Of a DNA stretch of 64,000 bases, positions 11,597-51,665 are shown one piece after another. The notes under the pieces were generated by a model that ran no database searches, was not told where the DNA came from, and was given only the letters and a program-made list of their open reading frames with translations. Origin of the DNA: Taeniopygia guttata (Eukaryota > Chordata > Aves > Passeriformes > Estrildidae); assembly GCF_048771995.1 (NCBI RefSeq), contig NC_133063.1, positions 22,507,063 through 22,571,062 of the forward strand, written 5' to 3'. Each line of letters begins with the position of its first letter. Position 1 is the first letter of the stretch. The translations under genes were made by a program, and so were the position numbers.

Positions 11597-11602
11597 TTTA
11601 TT
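11597..11602 (-). terminator. Likely poly(A) signal of the coiled-coil gene
   Basis: TTTATT on the plus strand is AATAAA on the minus strand, about 80 bp beyond the stop codon at 11684. This implies a short 3' UTR. Confidence 0.6.
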
Positions 11603-11683: not shown

Positions 11684-12141
11684 TTAAATTTCCTGATTTC
11701 TTCTAGTGCTGGGTAAGACATCCTGGCTGGAAGGTCTGACTGAAGGCAAAGAACTGGCTCTGTGTGGTCTTGAACTGAAGGATGTGTTGACTGAAGACCC
11801 AGTACCAGCTCTATTCCATGTCAGACTGGAGGACATGTTGCTTGAAGGCACGGTAAGAGCTCTGTTTCTTCTCATATGGGAGGATGCATCCATTGATGAC
11901 CCAGTACTGGTTCTGGTTTGTACCAGGTTGATGACTCTGTCCATTGATGACCCCAAACCTGTTCTGTCTGGTGTCACATTGGAGGGTATGTTGGTTTCAG
12001 ACACACTGTAGAATCTGCTTGGTGTCACATTGGAGGGTATGTTGGTTTCAGAGACACTGCAGCTTCTGCCTGCTACCACAACTGAGGGTATGTTGGCTCC
12101 AGGTACGGTAGAGGCTCTGTGGCTAGGCACTCTCCAGCATG
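11684..12141 (-). CDS. CCDC171: Terminal exon 25 with eight 17-residue repeats
   Basis: 458 bp, phase 1 in, acceptor TTGTTTATTCCAG, stop TAA at 11684-11686. After a short lead (CWRVPSH) come eight consecutive 17-residue units at 11711-12118, then STRRNQEI. Each unit starts with Arg and is rich in Ser, Thr, Asn, Val and Pro, for example RSCSVSETNIPSNVTPS and RFYSVSETNIPSNVTPD. No domain is recognised and the tail is probably disordered. An ATG at 12211 lies upstream of the acceptor and is treated as intronic. Confidence 0.72.
11711..12118 (-). repeat. 51-bp coding tandem repeat, 8 copies
   Basis: The 51-bp period is exact, with no indels over 408 bp. The two units at about 11966-12067 are nearly identical at DNA level (TGGTGTCACATTGGAGGGTA twice). 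The others are diverged but keep the Arg start and length. Confidence 0.85.
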
Positions 12142-12684
12142 CTGGAATAAACAAAAGAATAAAAAACAAATCAAGAGAGAACCTACGTTTCCTGTTAAAT
12201 ACCTCTAACAAGGGTATGCATGTGAAGTACTTCTAAATGTTTGCTCCTTAAGTGCTTATTTGAAACACACCACACCTGATTATTATACATAAATCTTTAA
12301 TAGACAAAGGACATTAGCACAGTATCCTTCCCTAGGAAGTGTTGGTTTAGCACTTTATTTGAAGTGCTACAAGTACTTACTTACAGATATCTTTTACCTC
12401 TCCTATTAATTCCAAAGCTGTGTTTTTTAATCAAGGAAACAATCTTAGTCTGACAAAATTGTAACAAAATTCTGACAAAAATTTCAATGCCTCTGTTAGT
12501 TACCACACCCCTTTTTCTTCTGAAAAATGTCTCAAAACATCTTTGTTTGCACTAGATTTAATGATCCCGTATGTCTACAATTAAGTGTTGTTGTATTTGC
12601 ATACAGAAGTTGTACAGTATGAAGGGAAAAGCTGGCTAGGAATCCAAATCCAAGGGACAATAATTGCTCAAAAACCAGACTTAC

Positions 12685-12753
12685 CATCAGGCACAATAAT
12701 AGGATCTGGAGGTCCACCAGCTGCTTGCAGTGAAATGTAAGGCTGAAAAGTAT
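12685..12753 (-). CDS. CCDC171: Array exon 24
   Basis: 69 bp, phase 1-1, acceptor TACTCAATAG (a weaker pyrimidine tract than its siblings), donor GATG/GTAAGT. Peptide DTFQPYISLQAAGGPPDPII then VPD. Its intronic flank is the most diverged of the six units. Confidence 0.62.
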
Positions 12754-13289
12754 CTATTGAGTAAAAGTAAGTTTTAAAAACCAAGAAATGCACAGAATGG
12801 AAACAGTTATGGTTGAAAGGAATGGCTATTACAAAATGTTAATTGTTAATAACAGAAAGAAAGGCAAAAGCCTTTGGTTATTAAAAAAAGAAAGAAAGAG
12901 AGAAAGAATGCAATTAAAAGAAGTAATAAAATCAAAAATTCAAAAATCAAACACCCACCCACCTATCTCAACCACTCCCCAAAACCAAAAGAGTCCAAGC
13001 AACCAAGAATCCAAACCCAAACTAAAACCACAATGACATCCAAACCCACAAGGACATGGGACATAGAAAAAACATTCCAGTAATAATTTTAAACCCTGTA
13101 TAAGCTTTCTCCACCCCCTTCTCTTCTTTAAAAAGTATCACAACATTTCTGTTTGCACTATTTTAATGCTCCATTATGTTTTCAATTAATTGTTGTTGTA
13201 TTTGCCTACAGAAGCTGTGCAGCATGAAGGGAGGTGCTGGCTAGGAACCCACATCCCAGTGACAGTAATTGCCTAAAAAGCAGACTTAC

Positions 13290-13358
13290 CAGCAGGAGCA
13301 TAAACAGGAGTAGCAGGTGTATGGGGTGCTTCGGGCCCAACGCTAGCCTGAAAAATAT
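13290..13358 (-). CDS. CCDC171: Array exon 23
   Basis: 69 bp, phase 1-1, acceptor TCTGAACAG, donor GCTG/GTAAGT. Peptide DIFQASVGPEAPHTPATPVY then APA. Confidence 0.66.
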
Positions 13359-13882
13359 CTGTTCAGAAATAGTAAATTTACTTCAGAGGAGGTAAATTTT
13401 AAAAAGCGAGGCAATGCAAAGAACTGCAATGGTTATGTTTGCAAGAAAAGACAAATAAAAAATGTTAATGCTTTATAACATTATGGAAGGAAGAAACCTT
13501 TCAGGGGAAAAAAAAAAGAGAAAATAAAAAAAAAAATTAAAATTCAAAAACTAAACACCCATCCACTATTGCTGCTCTGGGAAACAAAAAAATATTCAAC
13601 CAACCAAGGAAACAAACAAAACAAAATCCAAAAAAGCAAATGGGGACCAACTGAAAAAAAAAAAAAACACAGTAGTAATTTTAATCCCTTTGTTAGCTTT
13701 CAGTACCACCATTCCCTTCTCATAGATGTGTCAGAAGATTTCTGTTAGCATTGGTTTTAATGCTCCAGTATGTTGACAATTAAGGATTGTTGTATTTGCC
13801 TACAGAAGCTGTGCCGTGTGAAGGGAGATGCTGGCTGGGGACCCACATCCAAGTGACTGCCATTGTTGAAAAGCAGACTTAC

Positions 13883-13945
13883 CACCAGGAGGAGGACCAG
13901 GAGGTGCAGCAGCTCCTTTGGGCACAAAGCGAGGTCCAAAAGAGT
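13883..13945 (-). CDS. CCDC171: Array exon 22
   Basis: 63 bp, phase 1-1, acceptor TCTAAACAG, donor GGTG/GTAAGT. Peptide DSFGPRFVPKGAAAPPGPPP then G. Most proline-rich of the set. Confidence 0.66.
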
Positions 13946-14097
13946 CTGTTTAGAGAAAGTAAATTTACCTTAGTGAATACAAATTTGAAATAAAACACAG
14001 AACTTAAGTAGTTATGGTTGCAAGGAAAGGCCATTACAGAAATGTTAGTGGTGTATAACAGAAAGAAAGGAAAAAGCCCTTGGTAATAAAAAAAAAA

Positions 14098-14222
14098 CAA
14101 CAGGAAAGAAAGGGAAGTTCCAGGAAGTTATGGGAAGGGAAGCTGCTAAGAGAGGAAGGGGGGAAGGGAAGAAGGGAAGAAGGGAAGAAGGGTGAAGAGA
14201 GGAAGGGAGGAAGGGAGGAAAT
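14098..14222. repeat. GGAAG purine-rich low-complexity run in array
   Basis: GGGAAGAAGGGAAG-type repeats, inside an array intron. Equivalent purine runs sit at about 12880-12905, 13500-13540 and 15405-15512 in sibling units, with different lengths and motifs. They explain most of the variation in unit length. Confidence 0.75.
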
Positions 14223-14586
14223 TTAAAATGGCAATAAAAAATCAAAAATGAAAGACAGATATACCCACCATCAACACTCCCCAAAACAAGAAAAATCCAA
14301 CCTACCAAGCAACCAAAGCCAAATTAAAACCTAGAATATCTAAGCAAATAGGGACCAATAGTAAAACCATAACAGCATTCATTTTAATCCCTGTGTTATC
14401 TTTCACCATCCCCTTTCTCTTCTAAAAAATGGCTCCAAATGTTTCTGTTTGCACTGGTTGTATTGCTCCATTATGCTGACATGTAGGTATTGCTGTATTT
14501 GCCTACAGAAGCTGTGCAGCATGAAGGGAGACGCTGGCTAGGAACCTACATCCAAGTGACTGCAGTTGCTTGAAAAGGAGACTTAC

Positions 14587-14655
14587 CATCACTGTCATGA
14601 GCATGTGCAGGACATGTTCTGACTAGCTGGTGTCCAACTTGACCCCGGAAAGATT
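14587..14655 (-). CDS. CCDC171: Array exon 21
   Basis: 69 bp, phase 1-1, acceptor CTGCATAG, donor GATG/GTAAGT. Peptide ESFRGQVGHQLVRTCPAHAH then DSD. Shares PAHA with exon 20 but otherwise differs. Confidence 0.66.
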
Positions 14656-15197
14656 CTATGCAGAGAAAGTAATTTTCAATCTAAAAACTGTTTTCATTTT
14701 AAAAAACAAGGAAATGCACAGCACTGGTTTTGGTTGCAAGGAAAGGCTGTTACAAATATTGGTTTATAACATAAAGGAAGGAAAAATTTTTGGCTAAAAA
14801 AATAAACAAACAAAGTACGAAATATGAAATAGTAAAATAAAAAAAAAACCAACCATAAACCAAACATACACCCCCCCACACCTCCATCACTCCCCCAAAC
14901 AAAAAGAATTCAGCCAACCAAGCTACCAAACCTAAACTAAAACCAAATATATCCAAAGAAATAGGGTTCAATAGAAAAAAACATTACAGTAGTAATTTTA
15001 ATCCCTGTGTTAGCTTTCACCATCCCCTTTCTCTTCCGAAAAAAGTCTCAGAAAACGTTTCTCTTAGCACTAGTTTTAATGTTCCCTTATGTTTATATTT
15101 AAGTATTGTTTGCCTACAGAAGCTGTGCAGCATGAAGGGAGATGCTGGCTAGGAACCCACATCCAAGTGACTGCCATTGCTTGAAAAGCAGACTTAC

Positions 15198-15272
15198 CAT
15201 CAAGAGCATGTGCAGGAGCTCCAGCAGGAGGTGTACCACCGGTTTCGGGTTCAAAGTGAACTTGCAAAGATT
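15198..15272 (-). CDS. CCDC171: Array exon 20
   Basis: 75 bp, phase 1-1, acceptor TCCAAACAG, donor GATG/GTAAGT. Peptide ESLQVHFEPETGGTPPAG then APAHALD. It shares E-S-x-x-V/I-H-F-E-P with exon 19. Symmetric, so it can be skipped without a frameshift. Confidence 0.7.
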
Positions 15273-15404
15273 CTGTTTGGAGAAAGTAAATTTTAAAAAG
15301 CAAGGAAATGCAGCATACTGGAATGGTTATGGTTGCAAGGAAAGGCTATTACAGAAATGTTAATAATTTATAACAGAAAGAAAGGAAAATCCTTTATTAA
15401 AAAA

Positions 15405-15512
15405 TAAAGGAAAGAAAGAGAAAGAAAGAGAAAGAAAGAAAAAGAAAAATAAAGAAAGAGAAGGAAAGAAAGAGAGAAAGAGAGAAAGAGAGAAAGAGAG
15501 AAAGAAAGATAA
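15405..15512. repeat. (GAAA)n low-complexity run in array
   Basis: AAAGAAAGAGAAAGAAAG-type microsatellite in the intron between exons 19 and 20. Confidence 0.8.
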
Positions 15513-15878
15513 TATAAAAAAAAAATCCCAAAACTAACACCCACCCGCCACCATCACTCCCCAAAACAAACAAAAAAAACCAATCCAACCATTCAAGCAA
15601 CAAATCCAAACTAAAGCAAAAAAACCCACAATTAAACTGCGACCAATAGGAAAAAAAACTTACCGTAGTAATTTCAACCCCTGTGTTAGCTTTCACCATC
15701 CTCTTTCTCTTCTGAAAAATGTCTCAGAACATTTCTCTTTGCACTTATTTTATTGCTCTCCATTATTATTACAATTAAGTCTTGCAGTATTTACCTACAG
15801 AACCTCTGCAGCATGAAGGGAGATGCTGTCTGGGAACGCACATTCAAGTGACTGTAATTGCTTGAAAAGCAGACTTAC

Positions 15879-16011
15879 CATCAGCATCAGGAGTAAGAGG
15901 CTCAGCAGCTAGGGGTTCAAAGTGAATCTCTGAAGATTCTCTTCCTGATGTTAATGCGTCAACTTTGGAAGCTGTCAGTGAGTAGAGATCCATAAAATGT
16001 TTATGCACGTG
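15879..16011 (-). CDS. CCDC171: Exon 19 (first exon of the tandem array)
   Basis: 133 bp, phase 0 to 1, acceptor TTTATTTAAAG, donor GATG/GTAAGT. The first half (HFMDLYSLTASKVDAL) looks like the ordinary gene. The second half (ESSEIHFEPLAAEPLTPDAD) is homologous to array exon 20, so the array probably arose by copying this exon's 3' part and its flank. Confidence 0.72.
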
Positions 16012-19018: not shown

Positions 19019-19135
19019 TTGGAATGACATAGCCTCTGGCCTGTCCCTCACTGCTTCCTCTGAAAGGATCTCCAGCTGCAGGCTGGGGAGCGGCGTGGCT
19101 GCTGCAGCTCCTGGTGCCATGACCTCCTCTCTGGC
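19019..19135 (-). CDS. CCDC171: Exon 18
   Basis: 117 bp, phase 0 to 0, acceptor TTGCCCTTTAG, weak donor CAA/GTTAGA. Encodes an Ala/Pro stretch and LEILSEEAVRDRPEAMSF. It is higher in GC than its surroundings, as a coding exon should be. Confidence 0.72.
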
Positions 19136-20352: not shown

Positions 20353-20407
20353 CTCATTCAGGGTGGCCTCCACAGCTTTCATATGATTAATGATCAACTC
20401 TTTATCC
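20353..20407 (-). CDS. CCDC171: Exon 17 (55 bp)
   Basis: Tiny exon encoding DKELIINHMKAVEATLNE after a shared Lys codon. Acceptor ACAACAG, donor GAG/GTAAGA, phase 2 to 0. It is open only in this phase. Confidence 0.8.
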
Positions 20408-21966: not shown

Positions 21967-22112
21967 TTTACTCCCAGTTTGAGGGCAGGTTCTGCCTCCT
22001 CGAGAGTCTCCCGCAGCCGCTGCTGGTCCTGCTCTGTGTCCTTCAGGAATCTCTTCTGGTGATCCAGAACTTGGTCTCTGCTCCTCAGCTCCTCCGTTGC
22101 GTTAGAGAAGCT
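21967..22112 (-). CDS. CCDC171: Exon 16
   Basis: 146 bp, phase 0 to 2, acceptor GCTGGCAG. Two donors lie 5 bp apart, GTAAAG and GTGAGC. Only the distal GTGAGC keeps exon 17 open, so it is chosen. Coiled coil (SNATEELRSRDQVLDHQKRF). Confidence 0.85.
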
Positions 22113-22584: not shown

Positions 22585-22758
22585 CATCAGAGATACATTG
22601 GAGACTTGGCTTCTATCTGTGTCAATAAGTGAGCACGATTCCAGTTTATTACTCAGCTCCTGAAGCCGTCGCTGGTATTCTTGTAAAAGCAATCTTACCT
22701 CCTGCTCACGCTGCAAAGCATTTTCTAACTCCTCATGTATATTATCTTGGCTGATTTT
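22585..22758 (-). CDS. CCDC171: Exon 15
   Basis: 174 bp, phase 0 to 0, acceptor TTTCCAG, donor ATG/GTAAGA. Coiled coil (REQEVRLLLQEYQRRLQEL). Confidence 0.88.
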
Positions 22759-24000: not shown

Positions 24001-24180
24001 ATGCTGAAGTTCATTTAATTGCTCTTGCAGTCTGTGGGCTTTTTCAGCATCTTTTCGCATCTCATTGAAAGCCCATCTGCATTCTGCCAGCTGCAGCTGC
24101 AGGGAGCGGGACTCTACCTCTGCTGCATGAAGCCTTTGTGAAAATTCAAATATTTCTTGCTGCAAGATTGCAATGTTTCT
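24001..24180 (-). CDS. CCDC171: Exon 14
   Basis: 180 bp, phase 0 to 0, acceptor TGACAG, donor CAT/GTAAGT. Coiled coil with QRLHAAEVESRSLQLQL, the best family signature in the gene. Confidence 0.9.
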
Positions 24181-26005: not shown

Positions 26006-26766
26006 CTGGGAAACAGAATTGCAGCTAGCAGGATAAGTGAAGCACTAAGATATGGCACACTGCTACATCCAGCTCTTTCAGAAATTAACCAAAAATAAGC
26101 ATATAAACAACAAATTAGCAAGACAATTTAGACCATTTTAAACATGCTTCCAGAATTACTAGAAAACAAAACAAAACCAAAAAAAGTAGATGAATCTTCT
26201 AAATTGAAAAACATTTTTGATACCATTTATCCTTGCAGAGGGAAGTATAAACTGGTCTGGCAACAGAAAGGGGCAAGTAGACATAATCTCTAAAGAAAAT
26301 TTCAAAATCCTATGCTAATATTTTACCTGACTCAGAAAGCAATTTTTGTGGTATTTTGTGGGTTTTATAAGGAAATAAATATTAAAAATTATTAAAAATT
26401 GAAGAAGAAATACCTTTTGTAAAAAGAAAAATTTAAAAAATGGTGACAGTTAATAATTTAGGAACATTGCAAGATATTTACCATAGAGAAGATGCTGTAG
26501 GTCCTAGTTCTGAAATCCATAACACAAATATCAAAAATATCAGATAGTGTTGAGTTCATGTGCATAATCGCAATTTTACCTGCAATGCTTAATATAAGAC
26601 TAGGCATTTCCTCTTAGAGTGAAATACATTTGCCAAGCAACATAAAAAAGATAAATAATATTTGTCCAAATGTCATTAAATAGGTCTTTATGCCCCAGCA
26701 ATAATAATAATCTTGCTCTTTTTTATTCCCTGACTAAGAAATTTGACATAAGAACATTTCACTTAC

Positions 26767-27268
26767 GTGACACATGCCTGCCTCTGGATTCTCCCACACA
26801 AACTTGAATTCCAGTGCATCCTCTGGAGCCATCTGTCCAGACGAAAAAGGTGCAAGAATGTCGGGCCAGAGCCCTCAGCCTGTGAGCGGCCAGAACTGCA
26901 ATCACAGCTCTTCGGAAGATGTAAACCAGGCGCTTGGCTCTTCTCTGCCCCAGCCTGCCTTTGCCTTGGCTGTTTCCCACGTTAGTAGGGAGAGCATAAA
27001 GGAGGCTGATGATCTTCTGGTTCAATAATTTGTGGTGCTTCACCTGTTCCTGGAGAATGTCTCTTTGGCAAGACAGAGCGCACAGTCTGCCGTAGAGAGG
27101 ACACAGGGCCCCTGACAGCAGTGCGCAGGCTGCCAGCAGGGATGGACGTGCCTTGGGATCATTTGATAATGTATTTGTCCTGGAATTGTTTTTGTGGGCC
27201 AGCTTCTCGTGGATTTGTTCAGGGCCATACAGTTTTTGCCTGGTTTTCTGCACTGTTTCTTCACCTTC
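26767..27268 (-). CDS. CCDC171: Exon 11 (largest internal exon)
   Basis: 502 bp, phase 0 to 1, acceptor TCTGTCGCAG, donor CAC/GTAAGT. Encodes 167 residues that look more globular-helical than coiled: SLLAACALLSGALCPLYGRL, QRDILQEQVKHHKLLNQKI, RRAVIAVLAAHRLRALARHS. The same block is present, decayed, in the intron-less copy at 51.2-51.66 kb. Confidence 0.87.
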
Positions 27269-28462
27269 CTGCGACAGAAACAAACCAAACAAGAACGGAA
27301 GAAATATTAACTAGATGGTTTTTACCTAGACAAGAGCAAAAAGAAAATTCTTAGCTTTGCCATTCGAATTATGCACTAAAGGAGTCAAAAATTCTTAGTA
27401 ATGATGGTGATGGGAGTATCTCTTCTAGTAAGCAATTCCAGAATCAGATATATGAAACCACAGCAATGGTAGAAGGGAAATTTACATGATCATCAACTGC
27501 AAATTTAACTCCTGATTTCTAACAACAATCCACCAATATGGTGACAGCTCACAGAAGGCCCAACACCTCTTGTCTGCCCACAATACAGTTTTGTGAGTTG
27601 ACTTAACAATAGTAATAACATCCTCCAATTTCAGAGAGAGAACTGCTCTACCAAGCAGAAAGCCAGTGTAAGTGGGAGGGAAAAGGTAAGGAAGGCTTGA
27701 ACCTGAAAGGAGACCGATTAAATTTTTCAGCATGCAAAGACTTCCAGTCCTGAAATCTGCACCAATTACAGCCTTATTCTTTGAAGTTAAGTTGCAGCAA
27801 CTCACAAATAAGAAGGGACATCTATTTCCTTAATTCACAATGCTTTTAATTCAAACAGGTGTGAAGGAATGTGGTGGTAAGACAGTAAATGGTGGTTGTG
27901 GAATAATGGATAACATTTTGGATTGCAAATAACTCATCTAACAAGCAGTGGCAGTTAAACACTTTAAAACCACTTCTCACTGTAGTAGTACTAAAGCAGA
28001 GTCACTTAACACTTGAAATCTACCACTGTTCTTAGGGTCAGTACAAAGGTAATTAAATTTATCCACAGGTAACACCACATTATTGTTACTCCATACCATC
28101 TCTGCAAATGGTGATGCTGAAAAAGTAGCTGCTGCCCTTAGTAATTCTTAAAAAAAGGAAATTCGATCTTACAGCTTTAGCACTCTCAGAAAAAAAAATA
28201 AATTCTACCACTATAGATGAAATCAGGCTTTTCAGCTGAGGCCGTAGACCAAATTCTCTTTAACAAATGCTTCAACAAGGTAATTTATTTCTTAAGTGAT
28301 GTCAATATTATCACAGTGATGAGTTGGTTTGTTGTTTGGATTTTTTTACTTTAAAAATATACTAACATTCCCAAATTACCTTAAACTGCTTAGGGCCTTA
28401 AACTACTGAAAGAATACATTAAATGTTACAAGAAAAAATATTAGAAGTTCCCAGCACCATAC

Positions 28463-49720: not shown

Positions 49721-50744
49721 CAAACAGCCGGGAAGTTTTGAATGTCTGTGGACAGAATTCAAAGCGGGGACCACAGCAGCGCATCTGCGGCCACGAGGAG
49801 GGAGTTAGGGCTAGGGAAAGGTTCTCGTGAAACCTCTCAAGCCGAGAGATTTCGAGCCCCAAGTGTAAGCATGTGTGTCAAACAACAAGCGAATAAAACC
49901 CACCTACAGTACCCTGGGAAAGCGCTCTCTCCTTCTCAAGCGCTGCTGTACTTTCTGTGGCTCCGTTTTTAAAGTTCTCCTTAAATTCTCTCTCTGCACA
50001 CTTAGCATGCAGATGATTTAACTTTTGCTGGCACCAGCACGGTATCCTGAGCTTCTTTCAGCTTTTGTCTTAAAGCACACATCCATCAGGATACCTGGGA
50101 TATATCATTCAAGACTGGAGGTTTTAATTGCAAGAGAAAAAGACTCCACAACATTCCACACTCTCTGGGATAAGTCTCAAAATTTCGTTTCTCCTTTGTG
50201 ACCTGATCTCTGTAAATGGCTTTCAGCCGCAGTTTTGTTAATTCTGTGTCATGTAGTTATTAAATATATTGAGTCAAACAAAATAAGGGGGGGATGGAGG
50301 GTGTGTTGTGCGTTGCTTCATTTCTTCATTATTGTTTCCAAGAGATTTTAGTGCACAAGATTGTGCTTGTAAAACAAATAAAATAAAGTAGACAGTAAGG
50401 CAACAAACTAACTCCACGGACAAATCAGTGTCACAGGAAAATTAAGTTTAAATTTGCATATCTGAAATAAAGATTGAGTTATAAAATGCAGACTTTCTCA
50501 CAGTTGTCTTCTCTTTCCTTTTGTAAAGAGAAGTTGTTAAGTCCAGTCCATGGCCATACTCTCTGTGTCTTCTTTGAAAGTTTCATGTAAGGCTTAGCTT
50601 TTATCTCCTTCTTCACTGGAGTGCAAGTTTAGTTTTTTGTCTTACTCCTGTAACTGTTGCTCCTGTTCATTCCAAAGTGATCATGCCTGATGCTTCCAAT
50701 GTAATGCATTGTTTAATTCTCCTACACTCAAACCTCTCACAGTG
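49721..50744. other. Upstream region between promoter and retrocopy
   Basis: No gene recognised. Composition falls from CpG-rich to AT-rich moving away from the start codon. May hold upstream regulatory sequence of the minus-strand gene. Confidence 0.45.
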
Positions 50745-51665
50745 TGGTGAATTTTTGCTGAAGCATATTTAATTGCTCTTGCAGGCTCTGGGCTTTCTCA
50801 GCTTCTTTTTTTCGTCTTACTGAAATTCCATTTGAATTCTACAAGTTGTAGGTTTAGTGACTAGTATTCCATTTGTGCTGCATGAAGCCTTCCTGTAAAT
50901 TCAAATATTGCTTTCTGCAAGGATGCTTTGTTTTTCATACTGGACAGTCTGCCACACGATCCTCCAGACAAGGACTTTTTCTCCAGATCAGCGGTGCACT
51001 TGCTGTGGCCTAGTGGAACTGTCTCCATTATTGCATTCAGCTTGTCCATCATTTCTGAGAAGGAGTTTCTGGCTGCACCTGTTTTTAAATGTCCACAAAG
51101 CCCTGACTTTGGCTAGTTAACAACATTCTTCTGTTGGGTCATGGAACTGATTATTGCAGCATGGAAATTAACTAGGAAACCAAGTGAGTGCTTCAAAGCT
51201 GTCAGTTTCTTCCTTTTCACAAACTGGCAGATTATGCCTGTATTTGGGTTCTCCTACACACACTCGAAATCCAGTTCCTACTTTTAAACCCTTTCATCCA
51301 GGTGAAAAGGGAACGAGAAGACTGGGCTGAAGCTTTAAGCCTTTTAGCCACCAAAACTGCCATCACAGCTCCTCAGAACACACACACCAGGCCTTTGGTT
51401 CATCTTTTCCTCAGCCTTGCTTCATCTTGATTGTTTTCCTCAGCCGCAGGGAGAGCATTTATTAGGCTCCTGATTTTCTGTTTCACTAATTTGTGGATGT
51501 TGACCTGGTCTTGGAGAGATTCTCTTTGGGAAGACAGAAGCACTCAGCTGGCCATAGAGAGGACACAGCCATACCATGCTCCTTTTTGCCCACTCCTAGC
51601 TGTTGCATTTTCTCAATCCTTTTTTAATTTGCCTGCTAATGTCCTGGAGATTGCCCCAGGTTCGC
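50745..51665 (-). pseudogene. Intron-less decayed copy of CCDC171-family exons 11-14
   Basis: On the minus strand, pieces matching exons 11, 12, 13 and 14 follow in order without introns. CPLYG lies near 51573, a VKQKIRSLINALP-like piece near 51475, AVMAVLVAKRLKA near 51350, a VCVGEP motif near 51260, then a WFPS and SFEALTW-like piece, MMDKLNAIMETV near 51030, and LQKAIFEFTGRLHAAQMEY ending near 50865. Three introns of the gene are cleanly absent at the matching points. Several stops and frameshifts break it, and part of exon 13 is deleted. No poly(A) tail or target-site duplication was seen. It looks like a fragment of a processed pseudogene. Its exon 14 part (VEFK, KAQSLQEQLN) differs from the neighbouring gene, so the source may be a different family member or an old transcript. 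Confidence 0.8.

Follow-up and report, generated by a model that had tools for sequence, protein, structure and literature searches.

Results

Architecture of the exon array

The zebra finch (Taeniopygia guttata) DNA analyzed here, a stretch of 64,000 nucleotides at positions 22,507,063 to 22,571,062 of contig NC_133063.1 (assembly GCF_048771995.1) that we call the window, carries on its minus strand what looks like the 3' end of the gene CCDC171. The tail of the predicted protein is encoded by an array of small tandem exons, in units of about 0.6 kb, that have diverged from each other more than their introns have (Table 1). The array is present in multiple copies on one contig, which is the main new fact of this analysis and was absent from an earlier note on this DNA.

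The six donors of the array are all GTAAGT and its seven acceptors all AG, at the positions given in the earlier note. Exon 1, cassette exons 2–6 and the terminal exon share a single reading frame, with phase 1 at the junctions after exons 1–6. The chain extends upstream: 12 exons, from five upstream ones through the terminal exon, are joined by their splice sites and phases into one open frame that runs down to the stop codon. Each cassette exon encodes a Pro/Ala-rich peptide of 21–25 residues with the loose frame [E/D]-[S/T/I]-[F/L]-Q-x-x-[F/V/I]-x-P, followed by a Pro/Ala-rich end. The units had been described as six, of 0.6–0.7 kb with one short exon each; five exons of 63–75 nucleotides fit this description, while the sixth is the last 60 nucleotides of a 133-nucleotide exon, exon 1. 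Since these 60 nucleotides are homologous to the cassettes, exon 1 is likely the founder of the array. Introns 1–5 (524–641 nucleotides) can be aligned over their whole length, and seven of the eight 17-residue repeats of the terminal exon start with R-x-x-S/T.

Two candidate explanations for the array were rejected. For mutually exclusive splicing of the Dscam type, two docking targets were tried, intron 0 and the 3' part of intron 6; neither paired with the six donor blocks more strongly than did 20 permuted controls each. For a transposon origin, parts of the units were compared by BLAST with the remaining window sequence and matched it only in short scattered places; no transposon library was searched.

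Table 1. Predicted features of the array and of the upstream gene (window coordinates).
Feature	Position	Strand	Description
Exon 1 of array	15879..16011	-	133 nt; HVHKHFMDLYS...ESSEIHFEPLAAEPLTPDAD; last 60 nt homologous to cassette exons
Cassette exon 2	15198..15272	-	75 nt; ESLQVHFEPETGGTPPAGAPAHALD
Cassette exon 3	14587..14655	-	69 nt; ESFRGQVGHQLVRTCPAHAHDSD
Cassette exon 4	13883..13945	-	63 nt; DSFGPRFVPKGAAAPPGPPPG
Cassette exon 5	13290..13358	-	69 nt; DIFQASVGPEAPHTPATPVYAPA
Cassette exon 6	12685..12753	-	69 nt; DTFQPYISLQAAGGPPDPIIVPD
Terminal coding exon	11684..12141	-	TAA at end; eight degenerate 17-residue (51-bp) repeats
Intron 1	15273..15878	-	606 nt; conserved donor block = first ~90 nt
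Intron 2	14656..15197	-	542 nt
Intron 3	13946..14586	-	641 nt
Intron 4	13359..13882	-	524 nt
Intron 5	12754..13289	-	536 nt
Intron 6	12142..12684	-	543 nt; homology to other introns limited to first ~215 nt
AATAAA polyadenylation-type signal	11597..11602	-	Downstream of stop codon
Upstream exon	19019..19135	-	AREEVMAPGAAAATPLPSLQLEILSEEAVRDRPEAMSFQ; matches presumed human CCDC171 sequence weakly (E 2)
Upstream exon	20353..20407	-	(K)DKELIINHMKAVEATLNE
Upstream exon	21967..22112	-	SFSNATEELRSRDQVLDHQKRF...
Upstream coiled-coil exon	22585..22758	-	KISQDNIHEELENALQREQ...
Upstream coiled-coil exon, used as control	24001..24180	-	RNIAILQQEIFEFSQRLHAAEVESRS...
Open frame containing upstream exon, weak PACT-like (pericentrin/AKAP450 centrosome-targeting) match	26759..27292	-	PF10495; precise exon ends not defined

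Exons of the window array diverge more than their introns

The earlier note had proposed that exon divergence exceeds intron divergence, and an alignment of the six units bears this out. In optimal pairwise alignments, where exon 1 was trimmed 2 nucleotides out of frame with little effect on nucleotide counts, the exons differ by 0.23–0.48 (15 pairs) and the full-length introns 1–5 by 0.18–0.23. Exon divergence exceeds whole-intron divergence in 10/10 pairs among units 1–5 and in three of the five pairs that include unit 6, where intron homology is partial. The donor block had been called nearly identical between units. A conserved block does exist, but over the 90 bases past the donor hexamer it differs by 0.10–0.16 among introns 1–5 and by 17–26% in pairs with intron 6, and exons exceed it in divergence in all 15 pairs. 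Exons outpacing their own introns are the reverse of the usual pattern and have been described mainly in toxin and immune-type gene families.

We fitted a joint model in which one tree and its branch lengths are common to the intron (nucleotide) and exon (codon) data, with the exon rate r and omega (dN/dS) as extra parameters, in 15 settings that combine five intron partitions with three codon alignments. Exons held at the intron rate with omega 1 fit worse than exons with omega free, by twice the log-likelihood difference (2dlnL) of 11–67. With r free, omega is 1.69–2.31 and lies above 1 in 15/15 settings; 2dlnL against omega 1 is 2.5–8.5 and exceeds 3.84 in 11 of them. Tying r to the introns gives omega of 1.83–3.81. 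The exon rate relative to introns is r = 0.91–1.84, and in none of the 15 settings is it significantly above 1 at the 5% level. In a parametric bootstrap of the six window exons, with omega 1 and the fitted r as the null, a fraction of 0.022 of 400 data sets reached the observed excess. The Nei-Gojobori estimate for the same exons is 1.37–1.82, so the check proposed in the earlier note, dN/dS above 1 between exons, comes out positive by either method; against an intron-based neutral rate, omega above 1 between units is found with moderate support.

Copies of the array on the contig

The genome searched comprises 1.14 Gb in 41 contigs, and the window is 22.51–22.57 Mb of the 82.2-Mb contig (C40 in coordinates below), which is probably the Z chromosome. 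An inverted copy of the array DNA lies at 22.835–22.840 Mb, about 312 kb away, matching at 98.4% over 9 kb; together with it the window gene may form a palindrome (C40:22518746-22839775). Array DNA is also found at 63.10, 63.81, 76.18, 76.36, 76.57, 76.77, 76.87 and 77.00 Mb. Among the array-DNA matches listed (of 193), all are on C40 save short simple-repeat matches, mainly to query bases 487–643. Several highly similar copies thus lie on one probable sex chromosome, the putative Z, as in an ampliconic family.

Exon 1 was found in nine places and the full-length terminal exon in six. The coiled-coil exon was found in eight family places, in a diverged paralogue at 73.6 Mb and in three weaker matches, and the PACT-like exon in eight family places, in the same paralogue and in two fragments at 31.9 Mb. 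The paralogue itself (C40:73638544-73645408) is CCDC171-like, with exons 54–63% identical and open frames. The search found no exon 1 in the 63.10 copy, and the 76.18, 76.36, 76.57 and 77.00 copies showed no unit 4–6 at the 3' end of the stretch covered and no full terminal exon. One TAG lies within the PACT-like exon of the 76.36 copy (C40:76387122-76387313).

Array length differs between copies. The 76.77 and 76.87 copies, of which both array ends were seen, have 14 donor blocks, 11 of them with an exon and a usable donor, and the 63.81 copy has at least 17 donor blocks, at least 15 usable, in an array that extends beyond the stretch covered. Distal exons retain the motif, some with long Pro-Ala tails, and in the 63.81-Mb copy (C40:63825000-63830000) the exon with the 17-residue repeat recurs at intervals of about 1.5 kb, and a single such exon holds as many as 15.8 copies of the 51-bp repeat (YRTYTVSGSDVPSSVTP type).

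The distal copies bear on the origin of the intron similarity. Gene conversion or unequal exchange could have homogenised the introns, the donor block above all, and spared the exons. Over intron bases 7–90 the within-array difference (0.112) is close to that between one-to-one counterparts (0.107), compared with 0.207 and 0.102 over bases 91–210, and the distal unit h4 combines an exon 2-like exon with a unit 3-like donor flank, so recombination between units has occurred. In the flank tree, however, the donor flanks of all window units but one pair with their positional counterparts in other copies at 96–100 support (W1-h1, W3-h4/h10, W4-h11, W5-h12, W6-d6; W2 is without such a partner), and the introns within an array have therefore kept separate histories since the copies split. 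With the outlier unit 6 set aside, counterparts likewise differ less in the donor block than in the rest of the intron (26/330 versus 50/471 and 123/713), so that mild constraint suffices, and conversion does not predict omega above 1. Homogenisation by conversion, which the earlier note had offered beside selection, is disfavoured by this pairing of units with counterparts, and we consider it quite unlikely.

Tests for selection in comparisons with other copies

We compared 22 distinct cassette units, of which the window supplied six, the 63.81-Mb copy fifteen and the 76.77-Mb copy one; two of the 17 donor blocks of the 63.81-Mb copy were left out (one had lost its donor and one was without an exon). 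If the segments were decayed or never-spliced repeats instead of exons, one might expect what a genome search with the joined peptide gave, namely 19 matches, single exons only, with no spliced retrocopy; some distal units indeed have no donor or no exon. Yet the predicted exons of the window have canonical splice sites, by which they connect in frame to the exons upstream, all 22 units have an AG, a GT and a length that preserves the frame (those without a usable donor having been excluded beforehand), and none of the 22 exons has a stop in its first 16 codons, compared with a mean of 5–6.5/22 under neutral simulation. That these segments are not exons is very improbable.

For the 22 exons with kappa fixed, omega is 1.45 (2dlnL 4.3), and a fraction of 0.035 of 200 parametric-bootstrap data sets reached this under the null. 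A two-class model, whose per-site values presuppose the intron rate, assigns omega 2.4 to 24% of sites, for the most part codons 5, 6 and 8, with 2dlnL of 9.7 over a model capped at 1.

Between the window and the inverted copy, exons 2–6 show seven changes in 345 nucleotides, all in exons 3 and 6; read by codon, six are nonsynonymous and one synonymous. Introns show 30/3361 changes, the 5' flank 16/1975 and the terminal exon 5/455, and the nonsynonymous rate (about 6/262 sites) exceeds that of the introns at p 0.042. Five of the seven exon changes are window-derived and two could not be polarised: all four substitutions of exon 3 are window-derived, as is one of the three in exon 6. The 27 flank changes divide into 15 window-derived, eight inverted-copy-derived and four without polarity.

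Between the window and its distal counterparts (units 3–6), the proportion of nonsynonymous differences (pN) is 32.2/194.7 (0.165) and that of synonymous differences (pS) 8.8/69.3 (0.127); the distal unit-4 exon was entered here with 3 surplus nucleotides, so that there is one extra gapped codon and its acceptor flank is displaced by 3 nucleotides. The nonsynonymous excess over aligned upstream sequence, which is mostly intron (732/8700, in alignments that include core exons too), has p 0.0003. A control coiled-coil exon of the same gene gives pN 0.049 and pS 0.164, so that cassette pN is the higher; the control is the 24-kb exon only, as the 22.7-kb row contains 20 bases of intron and a length difference kept the 19-kb row out of the count.

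Several results weigh against positive selection on the cassettes, support for which is moderate. Within the window, codon-bootstrap support for the Nei-Gojobori estimate varies with the alignment from 0.72 to 0.99, and the 16 gap-free codons give 2dlnL of 2.5–4.1. A single omega class over the 22 exons gives 1.38 (2dlnL 3.1); when two long branches are removed the site-class 2dlnL is 5.6 and codon 8 alone remains clear. The absence of stops is partly by choice, because units lacking an exon or a usable donor had been excluded. The inverted-pair contrast is borderline (7/345 for all changes, p 0.051), and in that pair the 3' flank (40/2724) has changed more rapidly than the introns. With the units' own flanks (196/1513) as the reference, the window-versus-distal nonsynonymous excess does not reach significance (p 0.11). 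Compared with each other, the seven distal copies have 19/761 segregating sites in exons and 313/10338 in introns, and amino-acid variants occur in 11 codons and silent ones only in eight, with no per-site excess. Exon 1 of the 77.00 copy is frameshifted (131 versus 133 nucleotides), so not every copy is intact. Taken with these younger comparisons, the excess is strong when units are compared with one another, borderline for the inverted pair and absent when the distal copies are set against each other. The diversification looks historical, and between the gene copies that are most alike it is weak or absent.

These results leave some room for an explanation without positive selection, in which the tail serves as a disordered spacer, its amino acids are hardly constrained at all, and its GC-rich, triplet-repeat-rich exons mutate and slip faster than AT-rich introns. 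Rate-only models (omega 1, exon rate 1.5–3.2 times that of introns) are just 1.2–4.2 log units behind the omega-free models, silent variants among the seven distal copies are per site at least as frequent as amino-acid variants, and the P/A-rich tail lengths differ by multiples of 3. However, omega exceeds 1 in every setting even when the exons are given their own rate, and both parametric bootstraps (0.022 and 0.035) agree; with omega free, the exons show no significant increase in rate, and the excess sits at particular codons upstream of the P/A tail. We therefore hold a purely relaxed spacer to be possible, though rather unlikely. Of the earlier alternatives, selection or conversion, selection is thus the better supported, with the reservation that its excess is missing among the seven distal copies. 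Diversifying selection on the cassette peptides is, as judged from sequence comparison, moderately supported.

The host gene

The host gene looks like CCDC171, with the array as its 3' end, a provisional name that is based on collinearity with a presumed human sequence. This putative stretch of human CCDC171 matches the minus strand of the window in order at 24171, 22740, 22142, 20409 and, weakly, 19090 (E 2). The likeness to the mammalian gene lies in these collinear exons; the C-terminus of the presumed human sequence past the FMD-Y region, in contrast, matches neither the array nor the terminal exon. For this gene no Pfam family passed its cut-off, five upstream or terminal frames giving sub-threshold matches only; PF10495 against the upstream frame gave E 0.0048 and 17.7 bits, below the Pfam cut-off of 25. 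A 534-residue joined model had no Pfam match at E 0.01, and the tail and the terminal-exon frame found no homologue at E 1 or better in a set of 5.8 billion proteins.

Human CCDC171 associates with the centrosome in human cells (PMC7618310). In quail the gene is on the Z, near a single-nucleotide polymorphism at 23.17 Mb (PMC5961004), and in chicken it is also on the Z (PMC13069001). In the tawny owl it is one of two chicken-Z-mapped genes with a higher level in females (PMC13069001); an extra or W-linked copy as the cause would be speculation. The CCDC171 literature, that on zebra finch included, contained in the parts covered no report of such an array or of extra bird copies.

An intronless CCDC171-like fragment with several stops lies on the minus strand of the window at about 50560–51600. 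It has core exons only, two by tblastn and about four by eye, and by eye it resembles the 73.6-Mb paralogue more closely than it does the exon of the window gene itself. The same fragment lies beside the inverted copy (C40:22800469), and a relative with an open frame is found at C40:63773301. Near the window edge, a retroviral RNase H/integrase-like open frame occupies positions 584–1831 of the plus strand (Pfam rve, E 7e-22).

Discussion

On balance we think it probable that the 3' end of the coiled-coil gene CCDC171 encodes the protein's tail in an array of small, phase-symmetric exons, whose peptides have diversified through weak constraint together with positive selection at a few positions. 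Similar introns would let misaligned chromosomes gain or lose whole phase-neutral units by unequal exchange, and the cassette exons would be spliced in additively. After duplication the tail peptides would be weakly constrained, with codons 5, 6 and 8, the best supported, changing faster than neutral, while splice sites, frame and Pro-rich end would be retained throughout. The tail itself most likely forms an appendage, disordered and variable in length, on what, in this bird, would be a centrosomal protein.

Parallels for the parts of this proposal exist in other systems. The PEVK region of titin consists of many small, phase-symmetric, Pro-rich tandem exons that encode a disordered stretch of variable length; the exon organization is alike and the genes are unrelated. 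Among venom phospholipase A2 genes, duplicates show coding change faster than that of their introns. The small serum protein genes (SSPs) of the habu snake are similar to the cassettes in that coding change outpaces introns in duplicated copies: SSP-1 and SSP-2 have a Ka/Ks of 1.739 and an intron rate of 0.0649, and the acceleration was placed just after duplication (PMC6609765). The snake copies, however, are whole genes, while here they are single exons in the tail of one gene, Pro/Ala-rich and probably disordered. For multi-copy arrays on a songbird Z, the likeness is to the PAK3L ampliconic arrays of the zebra finch, a different gene, for which testis expression is cited, as is positive selection acting on some of the copies (PMC13060935). 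The words CCDC and palindrome are absent from the main text of that paper. Identity of our loci with the PAK3L kinase was considered and rejected, as a pattern search found no kinase motif in the CCDC171 loci examined.

A more far-reaching idea is that this centrosome protein of the Z belongs to an ampliconic family expressed in the germline, and that its tail acts as a generator of diversity at two levels, under positive selection from sex-chromosome conflict. At the level of exon number, the window copy has six, two distal copies have 11 usable and another at least 15; at the level of the 51-bp repeat, the window has eight and one exon of another copy, itself repeated, up to about 16. We find this idea, read from the DNA, doubtful. 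If it were true, the diversification would be that expected when sex chromosomes are in conflict over how centrioles or chromosomes are transmitted in meiosis or sperm.

The present findings suggest that treating the gene as single-copy in assembly or annotation could merge several loci. Copies with differing array lengths provide a natural series for the growth of a disordered tail by exon duplication, and the same series lets one ask whether sex-linked germline conflict reaches the centrosome.

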